37,491 nucleotides of DNA from NCBI GenBank assembly GCA_019115225.1, contig DXEA01000108.1, positions 1-37,491 of the forward strand, given 5' to 3'. Positions 20,737 to 37,422 of the stretch are shown here, one piece after another. Below the pieces are notes generated by a model, which worked only from the letters and a program-made list of their open reading frames with translations, was not told the origin of the DNA and made no database searches. Source of the stretch: Candidatus Evtepia faecigallinarum (GTDB taxonomy: Bacteria; Bacillota; Clostridia; Oscillospirales; Oscillospiraceae). Positions within the stretch are counted from its first letter, which is position 1. Each line of letters opens with the position of its first letter. The position numbers were made by a program, and so were the translations under genes.

Positions 20737-21127
20737 GGGTTTCATTCTCCTTTGGTTGATTTTTTCGGAGAATGCCGCTATCATAGGACTGTTGGGGTAC
20801 CGTGCAGCGGTATTCTCCAATTTTTATGGGAAACGGCCGAGCTCGCACCTCGGTCGTTTTCCTTTTTTGTCTTTTCCCCGGCGGGAAAACAGAAAGGATC
20901 GCCTTGAGCAAAGTCAAAGCGATCCTTGGGTACGCCAAACTGCGCGTGAAACCCCAAAAGTTCCACACGGCAGGGATCGTTTCCTTTCTCAAATACGGAG
21001 TACCGCGCCATTTCTGGACCTGCGGTATGGGCCCTCCCACGGGAGGGCCGGCCAGGCAGCCATGGACCAAGTCTTTAGGCCGCGGGGCATCGGAAACAGG
21101 ATGGAATTGTCACCCGCCGGGCCGTCC
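20737..21127 (-). promoter_or_regulatory. Long structured 5' leader of modA (candidate regulatory RNA)
   Basis: ~390 nt without convincing CDS; hairpins at 20767-20818, 20835-20855, 20894-20927; arm ATTCTCC complementary to both the upstream arm and the modA SD. Confidence 0.5.
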
Positions 21128-28471: not shown

Positions 28472-28690
28472 TTACTTGCTGTAGTGGTCGAAAGCAGGGT
28501 TGGTATAGTAGACGTTTTTCTTGTCCAACTGGTCCCGCACCTGCTGCAGGGCACTGCCAAAGCGCTGGAAGTGGACGATCTCCCGCTCCCGGAGGAAGCG
28601 GATGACGTCGGTGACGTCGGGGTCGTCCTTGGCCAGGCGGAGGATGTTGTCATAGGTTACACGGGCCTTTTGCTCTGCTGCAATCACCGA
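28472..28690 (-). pseudogene. cotJC: 3' fragment of CotJC-like (manganese catalase family) spore coat gene
   Basis: IAAEQKARVTYDNILRLAKDDPDVTDVIRFLREREIVHFQRFGSALQQVRDQLDKKN, the C-terminal part of the family; the N-terminal two-thirds are absent and replaced by recombinase sequence. Confidence 0.75.
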
Positions 28691-28735: not shown

Positions 28736-30301
28736 TTAGAAATTCCAATGAATTTCAACCGGAACGTCTTTCGTTCCCGGAATGCGCTTGCCCACCGAGA
28801 TGTAGTCAATGAGCGTCTCGACCACCTCTCGGGTCAGGTAATCCAGGTTGGTATACTGCTCGATGAGCTCCCGGCGGTTGTCCCCTGCCGCGATTTTTTC
28901 CTCCAACTGATCTAACTGTTTCTCCGTCTCCACGACGACGCGCTCCAGGCGGGTGCGCTCGGCGGAAAAGCCTTTTGACAACTCCGCAAAGTCCCCTTCC
29001 GAAATCAGCCCCCGCACCTTGTCCATATAGAGCTCCCGAATCCCCTTGGCGTACTCCTCGATCTTTTTCTGGTAGACGGCAAGGTCTGTGCGCAGTCGGG
29101 CTTTTTGCTCCTGCAGGTTTTCACAGAATTCGATGTTTCGTTCCAGCTCGTCCCTGTCCAGGTACTCTGCCGAGAGGCGGTTCAGCTCCTCCATCACAAG
29201 CTGCTCCAGCTTATCCACGGCGATAAAGGAGCCGATGCAGGCGTCCTTGGCGATGTGGCGGTTGGCGCATTGCAGATAGTGCTTTCCGCCGCGCTTCGGT
29301 GAGGTCTTGCCCGACCGCATCGTGTCTCCGCAGTTGGCGCAGCGGGCCTTTTTGGCAAACAGACCGATGGTACCAATGTCAAAGGGCTTGGCCCGCTGGG
29401 CCACCAGCGCCTGGACTCTGTCCCACAGTTCCCGGTCGATGATGGGCTCGTGGGTTCCCTCCACCCGGTACCACGCCTCTTTGGGGCGGGGTCGGTTCTG
29501 CTTGGTCTTGTAGGATACGCTGCCATACTTCCCCTGCACCATATTGCCAATATAAATCTCATTGGTGAGCATGTTGGAAATGGCAAAGTATTTCCACAGG
29601 GTACTGTTTTTCTTCTTCGGCTGCTGGTAGCGCAGCCCGTGCAGGCGCTTATACTCCGTCGGGTTGGGGATGCCCCGGTCGTTGAGCAGCCGGGCAATCG
29701 CCGTCTTGCCATAGCCCTGGGAAAAAAGGGTAAACACCTCCCGGACCACGGCTGCTGCCTCCTCGTCGATGATGAGATGTCCTTTCTGGTCCGGGTCCTT
29801 CTGATAGCCATAGAGGGCGAACGCCCCGATATGGAACCCGTTTTTCCGGCGGTTGGTCAGAACGCTGCGGATGTTGTCCGACATGTCCTCCAGATACCAC
29901 TCGTTGACCAGGCCGTTGATCTGCCGGGATTTTTTGTTGCCCTTATTCGCAGTATCGGCGTTGTCGACGATGCTGATGAAGCGGATGCCCCAGATGGGGA
30001 ACAGACCATGGATGTACTTTTCCACCAGCTCCAGCTCGCGGGTAAAGCGCGACTGGGTTTTGCACAGGACAATGTCAAATCGGTGCTGCTCGGCGTCCTG
30101 CAACAAGCGGTTAAACTCCGGGCGGCGCCGGTCTGCGCCGGTGTAGTCGTCGTCGCTGTATACGTTGTAAAGCTCCCACCCCTGTTCCATGGCGTATTGC
30201 AGCAGCATCGCCTTTTGGTTTTGAATGCTGCCTGAGTCATCGGTTTCAAATTGCTTGTTCCGATCTTCTTCGGATAAGCGGCAATAGATTGCTACTTTCA
30301 T
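28736..30301 (-). CDS. Large serine recombinase (resolvase + recombinase + zinc-ribbon domains)
   Basis: VAIYCRLSEEDRNKQFETDDSGSIQNQKAML; YSDDDYTGADRRRPEFNRLLQDAE; TQSRFTRELE; zinc ribbon ARCANCGDTMRSG...YLQCANRH; coiled-coil C-terminus. Confidence 0.95.
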   Translation of the reverse strand: MKVAIYCRLSEEDRNKQFETDDSGSIQNQKAMLLQYAMEQGWELYNVYSDDDYTGADRRRPEFNRLLQDAEQHRFDIVLCKTQSRFTRELELVEKYIHGLFPIWGIRFISIVDNADTANKGNKKSRQINGLVNEWYLEDMSDNIRSVLTNRRKNGFHIGAFALYGYQKDPDQKGHLIIDEEAAAVVREVFTLFSQGYGKTAIARLLNDRGIPNPTEYKRLHGLRYQQPKKKNSTLWKYFAISNMLTNEIYIGNMVQGKYGSVSYKTKQNRPRPKEAWYRVEGTHEPIIDRELWDRVQALVAQRAKPFDIGTIGLFAKKARCANCGDTMRSGKTSPKRGGKHYLQCANRHIAKDACIGSFIAVDKLEQLVMEELNRLSAEYLDRDELERNIEFCENLQEQKARLRTDLAVYQKKIEEYAKGIRELYMDKVRGLISEGDFAELSKGFSAERTRLERVVVETEKQLDQLEEKIAAGDNRRELIEQYTNLDYLTREVVETLIDYISVGKRIPGTKDVPVEIHWNF

Positions 30302-30343
30302 TTTCCTATCTCCTCAAAGATAAGAACAAGCGCCCTCCATTGG

Positions 30344-30372
30344 ATGATACCATAAAAGAGAGCGCTTGTCAT
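30344..30372 (-). promoter_or_regulatory. Candidate promoter of the recombinase flanked by an inverted repeat
   Basis: Minus strand ATGACA-17 nt-TATCAT; ACAAGCGC/GCGCTTGT arms at 30362-30369 and 30326-30333. Confidence 0.45.
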
Positions 30373-30518
30373 TATTGTTGTGCCGGGGTGGCTGCCTTGT
30401 TCCGCTCCATCCGGTTGATGAGCTCGATCCATTTTTGCGTGAACTGCGCTTTGGACGTCGTGCTTTCGCCGCCTTTGAACACACTGCAAACGCGCTTCAC
30501 CGGTTCCCGGTTTTCCAT
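30372..30518 (-). CDS. Small 48-aa element protein of unknown function
   Basis: MENREPVKRVCSVFKGGESTTSKAQFTQKWIELINRMERNKAATPAQQ; strong G-rich SD aaggggggt before ATG. Confidence 0.6.
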   Translation of the reverse strand: MENREPVKRVCSVFKGGESTTSKAQFTQKWIELINRMERNKAATPAQQ

Positions 30519-30539: not shown

Positions 30540-31230
30540 GGCTGACTCACTATATGAACGACAGCAGGGCCGTGATGACAAAAAAGCGGAACCGCTGTCC
30601 TCGTCCCATCCCACCGGATGAAACACCTTGCGCCGCAAATACCTTGTCGCGCAACGTCTCACCTCCGACACAGGAAGGACGGTCAGCCCGTCCGGCCTGT
30701 TCTGTGCCCATCTTCCAAAATGGGTTCTGACCGGCACGGGCTGCCGTCGCTTCCCTTCTGATGCAATCCATGATGTGCCGTATTCTCAGGCGGCAGGACC
30801 GCCCTACTGCTCACCCCCGGCACGGGAGTATGTGAGCCCGTCCTGGCAGCAGACGCCGGAAAACCAACGGAAGGTGAACCGCGGGTGACTAAGCCGCGCA
30901 CGCCATTCCCATCGTAGTCCACATTGACCCAGCGGGTTCGGGATAGTTCGGTTATCCCCCGTTGAGGGTCTCAGGTCGCGTCCCCGGCGCTGCCGGCACC
31001 GGGTAACAGGTTGGCGGTGGATCGCTCGTGCCTTGGATGGTGCTGGGGAGAACAATATCACCTCCTCTCCCCTCTCCCAGCCCACCGGCAGTCCTGGCGT
31101 CCGCCCCTGTGTCGCTCGCCCCAACGGGTCTTGGAACTCACATACCGAGATGAACGGGCTTGCCCGTTGTTTGTCGAAGTGCAAAGAGACTTAAAAACCT
31201 CTCATTGATTTCCCCGTTGGGAGGGCAGGT
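30540..31230 (-). ncRNA. Hairpin-dense region without convincing CDS (candidate structured RNA or leader)
   Basis: Nested stem-loops at 30679-30747 and 30926-30970, hairpins at 30789-30803 and 31153-31168; ORFs here have no recognisable domain. Confidence 0.4.
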
Positions 31231-31242
31231 TTGAACCGCTTT

Positions 31243-31695
31243 TCAGGAATTTTCGTCCAACAAAGCCCGCAATTTTTCCAGCAGCGCCTTCTTCCGCCGC
31301 CGAAATGTGGTTTGCGCCAGGTGCAGGGCGGCGCTGGCCTCCCGTTCGGATTTCTCCAGCACATAGAGCTGGTAGATGATTCCCCGCTCCTGGGGGGACA
31401 ATTTGCCCATCAGTTCCTGCATCCAGAGGGACGACACCACCGTCTCCTCCAGCGTGGGACCTTGGGCGGCAAATTGACGGTCCCCTTCCAGCAGGCGGTC
31501 ATAGGAGTCCTCCCGGCTGGGGGTGAAGGTTGCGGTCCGGGCCGCCTGATCGCAGACAAACTTTTCCCGCTTCAGATCATGGAGAAAATATTCCTCCTTC
31601 CGGGCATAGTGGCGATATTCCCGATATACCTCTTCGCTGACGGGCACAGCCTGTCCGTCTATGTAAAGATAGAATTGTTTTTGTTGCTCACTCAT
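31243..31695 (-). CDS. Sigma-70 region-4-like/ICE-type regulatory protein
   Basis: MSEQQKQFYLYIDGQAVPVSEEVYREYRHYARKEEYFLHDLKREKF...; C-term LSPQERGIIYQLYVLEKSEREASAALHLAQTTFRRRKKALLEKL (HTH). Confidence 0.8.
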   Translation of the reverse strand: MSEQQKQFYLYIDGQAVPVSEEVYREYRHYARKEEYFLHDLKREKFVCDQAARTATFTPSREDSYDRLLEGDRQFAAQGPTLEETVVSSLWMQELMGKLSPQERGIIYQLYVLEKSEREASAALHLAQTTFRRRKKALLEKLRALLDENS

Positions 31696-31912: not shown

Positions 31913-31922
31913 AAAAAAAGGA

Positions 31923-31954
31923 AGGCGCAGACAGCACGTCGGCTGTCTGCGCCT
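31923..31954 (-). terminator. Intrinsic terminator after the SLH protein gene
   Basis: Minus AGGCGCAGACAG-ccgacgtg-CTGTCTGCGCCT then TCCTTTTTTTT. Confidence 0.8.
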
Positions 31955-31999: not shown

Positions 32000-34900
32000 T
32001 TACCTCATCCCATATTCCTCACAGAATCGCATGAGCATGGTGGCCACTTGGGCCCGGGTGGAATTGCCCTGGGGCGCCAGCGTGCTTTCCGTCACGCCCT
32101 CGATGATGCCCGCGCCGCAGGCCCACTGCATGGCGGGGATGGAGTACTCGCTGACCGCCTGGGCATCGGTGTAGGAGAGGATGTTGGTATCCTCGCCCAC
32201 GGACACATCATAGCCCTTGGCCTGGGCATAGCGGTAGAGAATCGTCGCCAACTGTTCCCGCGTGATAGCGTCGTCGGGGCCGAACTTGCCGTTACCGTAG
32301 CCGCCCACAATGCCCTGGGACGCCGCCCAGGTCACGGCGTCAAAGTACCATGCGCCGTCCGCCACATCGTTGAAGGTACCACCGCCACTGGCCGTAGGCT
32401 GGCCCTCCATATTGTAGACGATCTGGCAGAGCTGCGCCCGGGACAGGTCATCATTGGGGCCAAAGAGGTTGTCCCCGTACCCGGCCATCATGTCGTGGCG
32501 GTAGACATAGGCCACGGCGTCCCAATACCATGCGCCCGCTGTCAGGTCGGTAAAGGGCAGCTCATGGCTCTTATCGTCCAGCACAAGGGCGTACTGGCTG
32601 GCGTGGTCAAAGGGCAGGGCCACATTGCCGTCCTCGTCCACCAGGGCGGCGGTCTGGAAGGTCATCGCCCCCGCGCTCTCGTCGTAGCGGTACAGGTTCG
32701 CCCACAGGCCCTCATTTTCCGCGCCCAGGGGGGCTGTCAGCGTCAGGACAAAGCCGAATTCCCCGTCGTGGGCCAGGGTGATCTGCACGGTACCGATCTC
32801 CCCCGTGATGGCGTTGATGAGATCCACGGGGATGGTAGTGGTGTTCATGCTCACGCCCATGTCCAGGTCGGTGAGGACGGCATCCGCCGCAATGTCCAGG
32901 CCGTAGATGGTCCAGTCCACCTCGCCGTCCAGGTGCAGGACCAGCGTCACATCGCGGCCTGACAAGGTCTCAAAGACCTCCTTGTCCAGCTTGGTCTGGC
33001 TTGGCTTGAGGGTGATCTCCACGGTGTCCCCGTCCTTGGCGGCCTTGATCTTGTTGATCAGCTGCTGGCTCACCGTGAGGGTGGGGCGGCCGCCGGAGGA
33101 CACGGGCTCCCATTTGGCCCAGTATGCCACGTCCCCGATGGCGTCGGCGGGGATGGCTGTCACCGGGTCCCCACCCAGTTCTTCATTGTCATACCAGCCG
33201 GCGAAGGTATAGCCCCGGCGGGTGACATCGGTGGGCAGCACCGCGCCCACGCCGTAGGTGTAGCTGGTGACATTCTCCCCCTCGGCAATGGCGCCGCTGT
33301 TGGGGTTGAGGGTGACAGCGTAGGTGTTGACGGTCCACTTGGCATAGTAAATCTTGTTTCCGATGTCGGTGTCGGTGATGGCAGTGACGGGGCTGCCGGA
33401 GAAGTCCGCGCTCTCGTACCAGCCGGCGAAGGTATAGCCCCGGCGGGTGACCTCGGTGGGCAGCGCCGCGCCCACGCCGTAGGTGTAGCTCGTAACGTCC
33501 TTGCCCTCGGCAATGGTGCCATCGTTGGGGTGCAACGTAACGGTATAAATATTGGCCGTCCACTGGGCGGTGAAGGTGGTGTCGGCGGTGATGGTCGCCG
33601 TGGCCCCCGGCTCATAGGTTTTACCGCCGCCACTCCAGAGGAAGGTGTAGCCGGGTTTGATTTCCGTCGCATCAGGGAGGGTGAAGGTGTCGCCGGAGTT
33701 GTAGTAGCCTTTGACCTCGTCCTCAACGGTGACCCGATAGACCGCGCTGTGGGTGCTGGCCAGCACCGGAAAATTGTCCGTGCCCAAGGTCTGCCGCCAG
33801 GGACCGTTTTCCTGCTCACTGTTCAGCAGCCACGCCACCTCGCCGGAGGCGAATTGCTCGGCGGTTTTCTTCTCGGCTCCGGTGGCGTTGCTGTCGTTGC
33901 CGATGCCATTGATGCTGCTATTTATGCCCTCGAGCCAGTAGCAGTTGGAGATGGAGGCGTTGCCGTTGGAGTAAACCTCGTTCCCCCCGCATACGCCGCC
34001 CACATTAACTTTAAAATTGTCGTTTCCGTCGCCGGACACGTTGCCGGTGCTATAACAGTTGGTGATGATGGCGGTGCCGCCGTTGGCGGCATAGTTATAC
34101 CCGCACACGCCGCCCACATCAACAACTCTATCGCCGAATATAGATATAAAATCGCTGTCACCGGACACGTTGCCGGTGCTATAACAGTTGGTGATGATGG
34201 CGGTGCCGCCGTTGGCGGCATAGTTATACCCGCACACGCCGCCGGGAGTGCCACCCGTCACGTTGCCGGTGCTGTAACAGCTGGTGATGGAGCCACCGTC
34301 GTTACTTCCACACACGCCGCCGGGAGTGCCGGCCTCCACGTTGCCGGTGCTGTAACAGTTTGTAATGGAGCTCAGGTTCTCCCCGCACACGCCGCCGGTA
34401 TAGCAGTCCCCATTCGTCACGTTGCCGGTGTTGTAACAGTTGGCAATAGAGCCAGCGTTCTCCCCACACACGCCACCCAAAGTGCAATCCCAACCGGTTA
34501 CGGCGTTGGTGTTGTAGCAGTTGGTGATGGAGCCAGAGCCAAAGTTCCGTCCGCACACACCGCCAGCACAAACGTTACCATCGCCGGCGCCGAACACGTT
34601 GCCGGTGCTGTAACAGCTGGTGATGGAGCCATCGTTCCGCCCGCACACGCCGCCAACATAAATATTAGTGCTGGCTGATTGTTCATCCTCCACAAAGCCG
34701 CTAAAACTGCAGTTTTCAATCGTGCCCAGGTTAACTGCGCACACGCCGCCGACACCATATGCAAAGAAATTTACTCTGGCATCCACCCCCGCATAGCTGT
34801 CTTCGAGCTTGAGATTTTTCACTACACCGCCGGTGCCAATTTGGCCGAACAGACCGGCGTAAAAACTGTTACCCTTGTAATACAGCCCGCGGATGGCGTA

Positions 34901-37291
34901 GCTCTTGCCGTCGAAAGTACCATTGTAAGGAACTATCTCCGTACCAATGGGAGAGGCCCACAGGCGGAACTGGCTGCCGTCACCGTTGAGTTTGAAGTCT
35001 TCCGTCAGCACATTTTGATTGATGGAGATGTCCGCCGTCAGCTCGGCGTCAGCAACGGCGTTTTGTGGCACCTCATTTCCAATAATGCTGCTATCCCCAT
35101 TCACCAGACCCGCAAACCAGTACAGCTGTCCGGCATTGCCGATCTGATAGACGCCGTTTTGCAGGGTGGCCGGTTGGCATACACCGCAGCCACAGAATCC
35201 TTCTGTATCGTAGTGGTGCTCTATGAATTGTTCGTAGCCCTCACCGGTATAGTGTACGATTCCGTGCGTGCTGTCGAGGGTGGGAGAGGGGTCCTTTTCC
35301 GAGCCCTCCAAATTCTGCCGCCATGTATCATTCACCTTTTCACCATTCAGCAGCCACGCCACCTCGCCGGAGGCGAATTGGTCGGCGGTTTTTTTTGCCG
35401 TGGCTTCGCCGTTACCATTGCCAATGCCGCTGCTGGCGGTGTCTTGGAGCCAGTAGCAGTTGGTAATTAATGAGCCGTCACCATAATTGCTAGTGTCCTG
35501 TCCGCACACACCGCCCACATTATCATTACCATTACCGCTCACAGCGCCGGTGTTATAGCAGTTGACGATTGCGCTATTGCTCTCCCCGCACACGCCGCCC
35601 ACATTGCCAGTACCGCTCACAGTACCGGTGTTATAGCAATTGATGATGGTGTCTCCGTCGTTCAACCCGCACACGCCGCCCACATTGCCGCTGCCGCTCA
35701 CAGTACCGGCACTGGAACAGTTGGTGATTCTGGTGGTATCGCCGGCAGTGCTGGAGCCATAGTTCCACCCGCATACGCCGCCCACATTGCCGCTGCCCGT
35801 CACGGTGCCTTCAACCCGACAGTTTTCGATATAGCTATCACCGTCGATATTTGCCCCACACACACCGCCGATATTGACCGTTCCAGTGGTGCTTGTTTTA
35901 CCCGACAGATAGCAGTCTTTCAGTGTGACATTTTTCACCGTGCCGCTTTTAACGCGGCCGAACAGGCCAACATAGACATCGGAATCAGCAACCGTCTCGT
36001 TGATGTCGCAATACAGCCCGAAGATGATATGGTTCTGACCATCAAAAATGCCGGTGTAGGCAACGCTGCCATCCTTGCCGATGGGCGTCCACGCATGTGC
36101 CGGGGACCCGTTGAGTTTGCCGTCTGCCGTCAGCACGTTCTTGTTGATGGTGATGTCCGCCGTCAGCACGGCGTGGGCGGCGGTGTTTTGCGGTGTGCCA
36201 TCGCCCAGCTTGCCATTCACCAGCCCGGCGAACCAGTAGAGCTGTCCAGCGTTGCCGATCTGATAGACGCCGTCGTCCTTCTGTGCGGCCTGATAAAATA
36301 GACCACCGCCTTCTGGGCCGAACCCGTTTTCATACTTTAATTCCACATTTTCATATTTTTGTGTGCTGCTTATAATAACGACAAAACCGTGTGTCTCGTC
36401 TAAGATGGGAGTAGCGTCTCCGCCATTGCCCAAAGTCTGCCGCCACGGACCGTTAATCTGGCCCTGATTCAGCAGCCATGTTACCTCGCCCGAGGCGAAT
36501 TTCTCGGCGGTTTTGGAGGCGACTTCCTCGACTGTGCCTTCGTCGAAGCCAACGCTGCCTCCTGAAGAATCGTTGGCGAGCCAGTAGCAGTTCGTTATCT
36601 TACCATCTATGTAGTCTATCTCTTCTTCGCCGTCATCGTAGGAGTAGCGCCCGTTATACCCGCACACGCCGCCGACATAACTGCCGCTGCCGGTCACGCT
36701 GCCGGTACTGTAGCAGTTCGCTATCGTTCCGCAGTTATACCCGCACACGCCGCCGAGGTTATCGCCGCCGTTCACCGTGCCGCTGAAGCTGCAATTTTCT
36801 ATCCTGCCATACACGTCTATATATCCGCACACGCCGCCGATGTAATTGCCGTTGCCGGTCACAGCGCCGGAGACACTGACGTTCTTCACCATGCCGTCCC
36901 GAAAGTCACCGCCGACATAGCCGAACAGGCCGGTATAGTCGCTGGTGCTGTTGTTAACGTTCAACCCGCTGATGGTGTGACCCTGGCCGTCGAAGGTGCC
37001 GATGTAGGCATTGGATTCGTCTTTGCCGATGGACGTCCACTGGATATCGGCAAGGTCGATGTCCGCCGTCAGCACGGCACAGGCAGAGGTGTCTTGCTGT
37101 GTGTCGGTGCCGATGATGTTCGCATCGCCGTTGACCAGCCCGGCGAACCAGTAGAGCTCCTCTGCGCTGCTGATCTGGTAGGGGTCTTCCGCCGTGCCAG
37201 TGCCCTCAGGGGCCGCCGCCAGGGCGGTGACGGTGAGCAGGCCCAGCAGCAGGCCAGCGCAGAACAGCAGGCGTATCAGTCGTTTTGTCAT
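32000..37291 (-). CDS. Giant secreted S-layer-anchored protein: signal peptide, three GLUG-repeat modules, InlB B-type repeats, three C-terminal SLH domains
   Basis: MTKRLIRLLFCAGLLLGLLTVTALAA signal; repeated GGVCGxNxGxIxNCYxTGxV; YTFAGWY repeats; FTDL..WYWDAVAYVYRHDMMAGYG / FNDVADGAWYFDAVTWAASQGIVGGYG SLH motifs; SD ggagg before ATG 37291. Confidence 0.92.
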   Translation of the reverse strand: MTKRLIRLLFCAGLLLGLLTVTALAAAPEGTGTAEDPYQISSAEELYWFAGLVNGDANIIGTDTQQDTSACAVLTADIDLADIQWTSIGKDESNAYIGTFDGQGHTISGLNVNNSTSDYTGLFGYVGGDFRDGMVKNVSVSGAVTGNGNYIGGVCGYIDVYGRIENCSFSGTVNGGDNLGGVCGYNCGTIANCYSTGSVTGSGSYVGGVCGYNGRYSYDDGEEEIDYIDGKITNCYWLANDSSGGSVGFDEGTVEEVASKTAEKFASGEVTWLLNQGQINGPWRQTLGNGGDATPILDETHGFVVIISSTQKYENVELKYENGFGPEGGGLFYQAAQKDDGVYQIGNAGQLYWFAGLVNGKLGDGTPQNTAAHAVLTADITINKNVLTADGKLNGSPAHAWTPIGKDGSVAYTGIFDGQNHIIFGLYCDINETVADSDVYVGLFGRVKSGTVKNVTLKDCYLSGKTSTTGTVNIGGVCGANIDGDSYIENCRVEGTVTGSGNVGGVCGWNYGSSTAGDTTRITNCSSAGTVSGSGNVGGVCGLNDGDTIINCYNTGTVSGTGNVGGVCGESNSAIVNCYNTGAVSGNGNDNVGGVCGQDTSNYGDGSLITNCYWLQDTASSGIGNGNGEATAKKTADQFASGEVAWLLNGEKVNDTWRQNLEGSEKDPSPTLDSTHGIVHYTGEGYEQFIEHHYDTEGFCGCGVCQPATLQNGVYQIGNAGQLYWFAGLVNGDSSIIGNEVPQNAVADAELTADISINQNVLTEDFKLNGDGSQFRLWASPIGTEIVPYNGTFDGKSYAIRGLYYKGNSFYAGLFGQIGTGGVVKNLKLEDSYAGVDARVNFFAYGVGGVCAVNLGTIENCSFSGFVEDEQSASTNIYVGGVCGRNDGSITSCYSTGNVFGAGDGNVCAGGVCGRNFGSGSITNCYNTNAVTGWDCTLGGVCGENAGSIANCYNTGNVTNGDCYTGGVCGENLSSITNCYSTGNVEAGTPGGVCGSNDGGSITSCYSTGNVTGGTPGGVCGYNYAANGGTAIITNCYSTGNVSGDSDFISIFGDRVVDVGGVCGYNYAANGGTAIITNCYSTGNVSGDGNDNFKVNVGGVCGGNEVYSNGNASISNCYWLEGINSSINGIGNDSNATGAEKKTAEQFASGEVAWLLNSEQENGPWRQTLGTDNFPVLASTHSAVYRVTVEDEVKGYYNSGDTFTLPDATEIKPGYTFLWSGGGKTYEPGATATITADTTFTAQWTANIYTVTLHPNDGTIAEGKDVTSYTYGVGAALPTEVTRRGYTFAGWYESADFSGSPVTAITDTDIGNKIYYAKWTVNTYAVTLNPNSGAIAEGENVTSYTYGVGAVLPTDVTRRGYTFAGWYDNEELGGDPVTAIPADAIGDVAYWAKWEPVSSGGRPTLTVSQQLINKIKAAKDGDTVEITLKPSQTKLDKEVFETLSGRDVTLVLHLDGEVDWTIYGLDIAADAVLTDLDMGVSMNTTTIPVDLINAITGEIGTVQITLAHDGEFGFVLTLTAPLGAENEGLWANLYRYDESAGAMTFQTAALVDEDGNVALPFDHASQYALVLDDKSHELPFTDLTAGAWYWDAVAYVYRHDMMAGYGDNLFGPNDDLSRAQLCQIVYNMEGQPTASGGGTFNDVADGAWYFDAVTWAASQGIVGGYGNGKFGPDDAITREQLATILYRYAQAKGYDVSVGEDTNILSYTDAQAVSEYSIPAMQWACGAGIIEGVTESTLAPQGNSTRAQVATMLMRFCEEYGMR
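34032..34114. repeat. 83-bp exact direct repeat, copy 1 (inside GLUG region)
   Basis: ccggacacgttgccggtgctataacag...cgcacacgccgcc; identical to 34161-34243, offset 129 bp. Confidence 0.95.
34161..34243. repeat. 83-bp exact direct repeat, copy 2
   Basis: Identical to 34032-34114; 129-bp (43-codon) period. Confidence 0.95.
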
Positions 37292-37422
37292 GTCGAACCT
37301 CCTTCGCACTTGCAGAGGGATGCTCCCCTGGTGTCACCCTTCCCAGAACGCAAAAATCCCCTCGCAACAGTTTTTTCGTTCTGTTGTCACATGATTGCCG
37401 CGGGAACACGACCTTTGTCCCT

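Follow-up and report, generated by a model that had tools for sequence, protein, structure and literature searches.

The closest described counterpart of the locus reported here is canT, a Tn916 RNA that is encoded between orf8 and xis and without which transcription does not pass the terminator T1 (Wirachman and Grossman, PMC11658703). Experiments showed canT to be cis-acting, orientation-specific and processive on foreign terminators; a second copy does not complement in the same way, and the RNA is dispensable for excision, acting on transcription (PMC11658703). Its authors reported complex predicted folds in 2024, found activity hard to read from them and gave no further sequence or structural analysis; no mention of NusB or boxA was found in their text (PMC11658703). 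boxA, to which NusB and NusE bind, is the basis of rRNA antitermination in Escherichia coli (PMC4807359).

The window, i.e. the entire stretch of 37,491 nucleotides that was analysed, contains a hairpin-dense region which, judged from comparison of homologous sequences, is part of a large conserved RNA predicted to be transcribed from the minus strand. The region is probably the template of a cis-acting antitermination RNA of the canT type, which would act as a leader and let transcription proceed through the recombinase gene.

Gene order and architecture of the RNA

The order in the window is sigma-like gene, RNA, 48-aa ORF, terminator-like hairpin, serine recombinase and element end, with the following individual features:

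31913–31954, minus strand: terminator-like site upstream of the sigma-like gene
31243–31695, minus strand: sigma-70 region-4-like gene (weak Pfam match), upstream of the RNA
31168–31182, minus strand: boxA-like RNA start GCACTTCGACAAACA (family consensus GCACCTTGAAAAACA)
31153–31168, minus strand: hairpin directly after boxA, in a boxB-like position
31136–31146, minus strand: 5′ arm of the long-range helix P1 (covariation)
31087–31101, minus strand: conserved block GACGCCAGGACTGCC, the family block CGCCAWGAC, common to Tn916 canT
31021–31034, minus strand: conserved block AAGGCACGAGCGAT, with GAGCGA common to Tn916 canT
30926–30970, minus strand: hairpin within the core, present in MFE folds of the region
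30879–30899, minus strand: hairpin GCGCGG..CCGCGG (GGCAG/CTGCC in relatives)
30827–30837, minus strand: 3′ arm of P1 (covariation)
30775–30823, minus strand: terminal stem-loop T1 (GTGCCG/CGGCAC) with inner hairpin T2 (30788–30804), which covaries
30678–30748, minus strand: strong 3′ hairpin, its position kept in relatives, its sequence not
30616–30665, minus strand: 3′ domain with final GGTGTTTCATCC, conserved in many members
30372–30518, minus strand: 48-aa ORF in the tnpW position of related elements, itself without a family match
30316–30370, minus strand: terminator-like hairpin with a U-rich tail before the recombinase gene (z −7.1)
28736–30301, minus strand: large serine recombinase
28674–28681, no strand: element end with core GCAGCAGA, common to contig C153, within an Mn-catalase gene

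The 48-aa ORF was not recognized by NCBIfam. A tblastn survey of the homologous loci showed that a sigma-like or DeoR/HTH_11-like gene precedes the RNA in most loci with sufficient contig. The downstream modules consist of a parB-like gene with DUF6551, DUF6870 and up to three serine recombinases; of DUF6870 with recombinases; of xis-int; of parA; or of an ORF in the TnpW position with a recombinase. All identified immediate neighbours of the RNA are encoded on its strand. In the window, the regulatory genes of the element adjoin a gene for a surface-type protein of 1769 aa, with repeats of the GLUG, Listeria-Bacteroides and SLH types (32000–37309, minus strand). The window additionally contains a Moco (molybdenum/tungsten) riboswitch (20965–21107, minus strand, 43.5 bits).

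The sole Mn-catalase (cotJC-type) gene found in the source genome (G000) is present as four pieces on four contigs, at positions 28674–28690 of the window and on contigs C54, C190 and C153 (L196, L195, L193). Joining the pieces at the short cores shared at the junctions (CCGGA, GGTAC and GCAGCAGA) would yield an intact frame; serine recombinases adjoin the junctions on C190 and in the window. Three intervening elements apparently reside in this one spore-coat-type gene. The opposite end of this element appears to lie on C153, after the Mn-catalase piece, and to begin with a co-directional pair of Phd/YefM antitoxin and ParE toxin.

The RNA is approximately 400–600 nucleotides long, with a core that runs from the boxA-like sequence through the terminal stem-loop (approximately 31182–30775) and a 3′ part that reaches at least approximately position 30616. 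The initial annotation had delimited a hairpin-dense unit at 30540–31230; a structured unit is indeed located there, with both of the proposed ends slightly too wide. One of its suggestions, a large structured RNA without recognizable coding, is borne out by the homologs, in which no reading frame is consistently open and in which conserved blocks are accompanied by compensatory changes in the stems P1, T1 and T2. The Rfam scan that it had recommended was performed with Rfam 15 and gave no match for the window RNA at strict or permissive thresholds, riboswitch and ornate RNA families included, nor any match in twelve homologous loci at strict thresholds. A circularly permuted group II intron was set aside, no Rfam match being found.

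All four hairpins that had been noted previously are present in the sequence. The first folds at 30678–30748 with −40.8 kcal/mol (z −6.2, with none of 200 shuffles equally stable), and most homologs have a strong hairpin of other sequence at the matching place. The second (30926–30970) is found within the MFE folds of the region, while the two simple hairpins correspond to T2, the terminal hairpin (30788–30804), and to the stem directly after boxA (31153–31168). The amount of pairing had been regarded as unusual for a spacer, which applies only moderately to the stability of the whole region (z −2.4 for the minus strand and −2.8 for the plus strand, 20 shuffles each). Since these values are moderately below those of the shuffles, folding energy alone cannot decide, and the comparative evidence is decisive. 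One homolog (L058) has approximately 100 extra nucleotides inside a loop of the core and was therefore matched as two pieces.

The best-supported feature is P1, a helix of 11–13 bp that closes the core, with arms approximately 210–330 nt apart and G-U pairs tolerated. Among 26 distinct arm pairs from clostridial and Tn916-type members, 250 of 260 positions form standard pairs, a count that is inflated because the register was picked as the best helix sequence by sequence; the median score is reached by shuffled arms only 1.3% of the time, and none of 20,000 permutations of the partners pairs as well as the real arms. The arms are wholly different between lineages with pairing kept (AGTATGTAAG/CTTACATACT, AGTATCCAAG/CTTGGATATT, AGTGTAGAGA/TCTCTACACT and AGTAATCGAA/TTCGATTGCT). 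For P1 and the terminal stem-loop, 19 distinct sequences display two-sided changes in 15 of the 22 tested pairs, with 47 double-sided cells versus 8.9 in shuffles, and pairing drops to 27–38% in slid registers. An unsupervised scan for covariation among all pairs of positions in 28 cores was underpowered and produced no pair with E below 1; the covariation claim therefore rests on the named helices.

Homologous loci and relation to Tn916 canT

A search for homologous spacers had been suggested in the initial annotation, and at least approximately 45 homologous loci, counted after removal of chance matches, were found in Clostridia and Tn916-type elements. Nucleotide search gave matches in seven of 401 genomes of the same family (the window's own included). 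A covariance model of the core matched 10 of 396 order-level genomes; in class-level and phylum-level samples, its only match was the window itself. Among the ten matches of this model, one (L148) was judged a chance match and another (L145/L168) is a truncated copy of the RNA; L064 was also judged a chance match. Further loci were obtained by running conserved-core patterns on viral contigs and genome contigs, where most of the genome-contig matches listed were due to chance and one stem-variant pattern had zero matches in viral contigs. The Lachnospiraceae members come from the contig scan. The member loci span chromosomes, metagenome-assembled genomes and contigs filed as viral. The window RNA has no DNA match in the phage or plasmid collections; L016 and L161 have none in the plasmid collection, and L010 has one unannotated match in the phage collection. 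A second copy of the RNA was not found in the source genome. One 21-kb contig (IMGVR_UViG_2558309122_000007) contains two RNA copies with different neighbours (L016 and L152).

The family RNAs start with GCACCTTGAAAAACA or close variants, corresponding to a boxA of host type, and the copy in the window is two to three bases away from the consensus. The region upstream of 16S and the 16S–23S spacer are the expected places of boxA. Since no 16S gene was found in the source genome, the comparison was made with the rRNA of relatives. The rRNA leaders and spacers of related genomes contain TGCACCTTGAAAAC or GGACCTTGAAAA, and the same boxA sequence occurs upstream of 16S and in the 16S–23S spacer (TGCACCTTGAAAACTGAAC, GGACCTTGAAAATTAAAC). 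Genome G408 holds both the RNA and the rRNA boxA, with ACCTTGAAAA common to the two. The AT-rich member L184 has TGTTCTTTGAAAATTGAATA and carries TGTTCTTTGAAAA, as does Tn916. Additionally, the ICE-like element of G408 contains a second boxA-like sequence, TGTACCTTGAAAAAAG, between the RNA and parA (L161:12760–12850). In the sigma-type loci (for example L161, L147 and L149), a TATATAG(TGA)GAGGG-like motif and a small hairpin recur between the sigma-like gene and boxA; they may represent a promoter recognized by the sigma-like protein.

The canT region of a Tn916-type element (L185) contains TGTTCTTTGAAAACTGAATA, CCGCCATGAC and GAGCGAT, as well as a P1 helix (AGTAATCGAATA/TGTTCGATTGCT) with 243 nt between its arms. 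A covariance model of 22 clostridial 5′ domains, with the window in the training set and zero Tn916-type sequences, matches canT at L185:1461–1567 with 22.1 bits (E 1.6e-5 over 34 kb, full scoring). The same model also matches five sister Tn916-type elements, each on the strand and at the location expected, with L188 lowest at 13.1 bits; control scores are at most 13.1 bits for unrelated loci and at most 7.5 bits for rRNA boxA sites; on L191, the match is of boxA size only. The top seven matches of the reverse covariance model, built from seven Tn916-type RNAs only, are clostridial members at known places, namely L149 (33 bits, E 4e-5), L184, L147, L181, L169, L162 and L182, and rRNA boxA sites rank next; the window is absent from this match list. 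Homology to Tn916 canT was thus found for the family, and the window RNA, judged by these models, is related to canT by way of intermediates and can be placed in the canT family. The position of the RNA also agrees with that of a canT: regulatory (orf7/orf8-like) genes lie on one side, the recombination module on the other, and all share one strand.

Proposed action and alternative explanations

We infer Nus binding, polymerase contact and read-through in the window's element. A nascent minus-strand transcript would start upstream of approximately position 31182 and expose a boxA resembling that of host rRNA, a site that NusB–S10 and other Nus proteins would bind. The RNA would fold into a body closed by P1, with the conserved stem-loop behind it, remain with RNA polymerase and confer resistance to terminators. 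Transcription would then run on through the 48-aa ORF, the hairpin at 30316–30370 and the recombinase gene. In the excised circle, it would cross the joined ends into genes of the opposite element end, which is the logic reported for Tn916.

The size and complexity of the RNA resemble those of ornate RNAs, its boxA opens a long untranslated RNA, and the downstream gene module differs among elements. These properties would also fit a stand-alone structured RNA that functions in trans or in a ribonucleoprotein, with boxA merely shielding its own untranslated synthesis from Rho. This explanation is unlikely, given that an identified recombination or partition module is located directly downstream on the same strand, and that the homologous canT acts in cis, with a second copy that does not complement in the same way (PMC11658703).

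The initial annotation had also considered an attenuating leader controlling the recombinase. A leader on the recombinase operon comes close to the present interpretation; however, processive antitermination of the canT type is better supported than attenuation. An attenuator or riboswitch-like leader, which would keep recombinase expression low in the absence of a ligand or protein signal, is consistent with the leader position and with the terminator-like hairpin immediately before the recombinase gene. This hairpin, however, is distant from the conserved core, the core showed no alternative pairing with the terminator, the core is kept in relatives with other modules, and Rfam riboswitch models gave no match, making such a leader very unlikely.

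The third suggestion, a cis-acting DNA site, is not supported because the pairing evolves as that of one RNA strand and is accompanied by a boxA and by co-oriented identified genes. The proximity of parB or parA in many elements would agree with an oriT, replication origin or partition site, as would the ability of single-stranded oriT DNA to fold; yet an 11–13 bp helix over 210–330 nt with G-U tolerance, a host-type boxA and co-orientation are traits of RNA, no iteron-like repeats were found, and canT is dispensable for excision and acts on transcription (PMC11658703), so that a DNA site is highly improbable. A degenerate coding sequence or chance GC-rich spacer, as might be read from the GC-rich composition and from chance open frames in single genomes, can be dismissed in view of the conserved blocks, the covariation and the frame breaks among homologs.

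Comparison with known systems

Antitermination of the canT type, the interpretation preferred here, can be compared with several described systems. Like the rrn boxA and lambda nut leaders, the RNAs of the family open with a boxA and, in most members, a short hairpin after it; window-type RNAs differ in that they continue into a body of approximately 400 nt with a long-range helix. We know of no N-like protein for window-type RNAs. The put RNA of phage HK022 and the EAR RNA of Bacillus eps exert RNA-based processive antitermination, the function proposed for the window RNA; to our knowledge, they are different RNAs with no described relation to it, the comparison being through the Rfam scan alone. 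The conAn system of pLS20 (ConAn1 protein and conAn2 RNA), likened by description only, resembles the proposed system in antitermination of a long conjugative-element operon and differs in that a protein partner is needed (PMC8955417). The ornate RNAs GOLLD, ROOL and OLE are similar in size, complexity and bacterial hosts (PMC12286853), whereas the window RNA is distinguished by the lack of an Rfam match, by boxA and by its leader position in an operon.

canT already exemplifies the kind of system proposed here. canT and the window-type RNAs have in common a boxA-like start, the closing helix P1, the CGCCAWGAC and GAGCGA blocks, and a location on the same strand between sigma/HTH-like genes and the recombination module. 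Unlike canT, the window-type RNAs are longer, contain a hairpin after boxA, a T1/T2 stem-loop behind P1 (a counterpart of which was not seen after P1 in Tn916 canT) and a 3′ domain, and precede serine recombinases, parB or parA besides xis-int. Neither Rfam nor the literature searched, which lay largely outside subscription journals and preprints, contained the clostridial branch, its extra domains, the boxA or the covariation-supported architecture.

These RNAs may constitute a superfamily across Tn916, Tn5397-/Tn1549-like and gut-clostridial elements (with serine recombinases or parB), in which boxA recruits the host rRNA antitermination machinery and the large folded domain locks polymerase in a terminator-resistant state, a proposal that could as readily prove wrong as right. 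If true, elements with very different modes of integration would rely on a single RNA device to link excision with the expression of their genes. For canT-type RNAs, the comparative set supplies a covariation-supported closing helix, conserved blocks and boxA, and thus permits precise mutants that address how the RNA makes polymerase ignore terminators. It also suggests that Tn916-/Tn1549-type resistance elements and many elements of gut commensals have one switch in common, by which the genes of the element are silenced while it is integrated.
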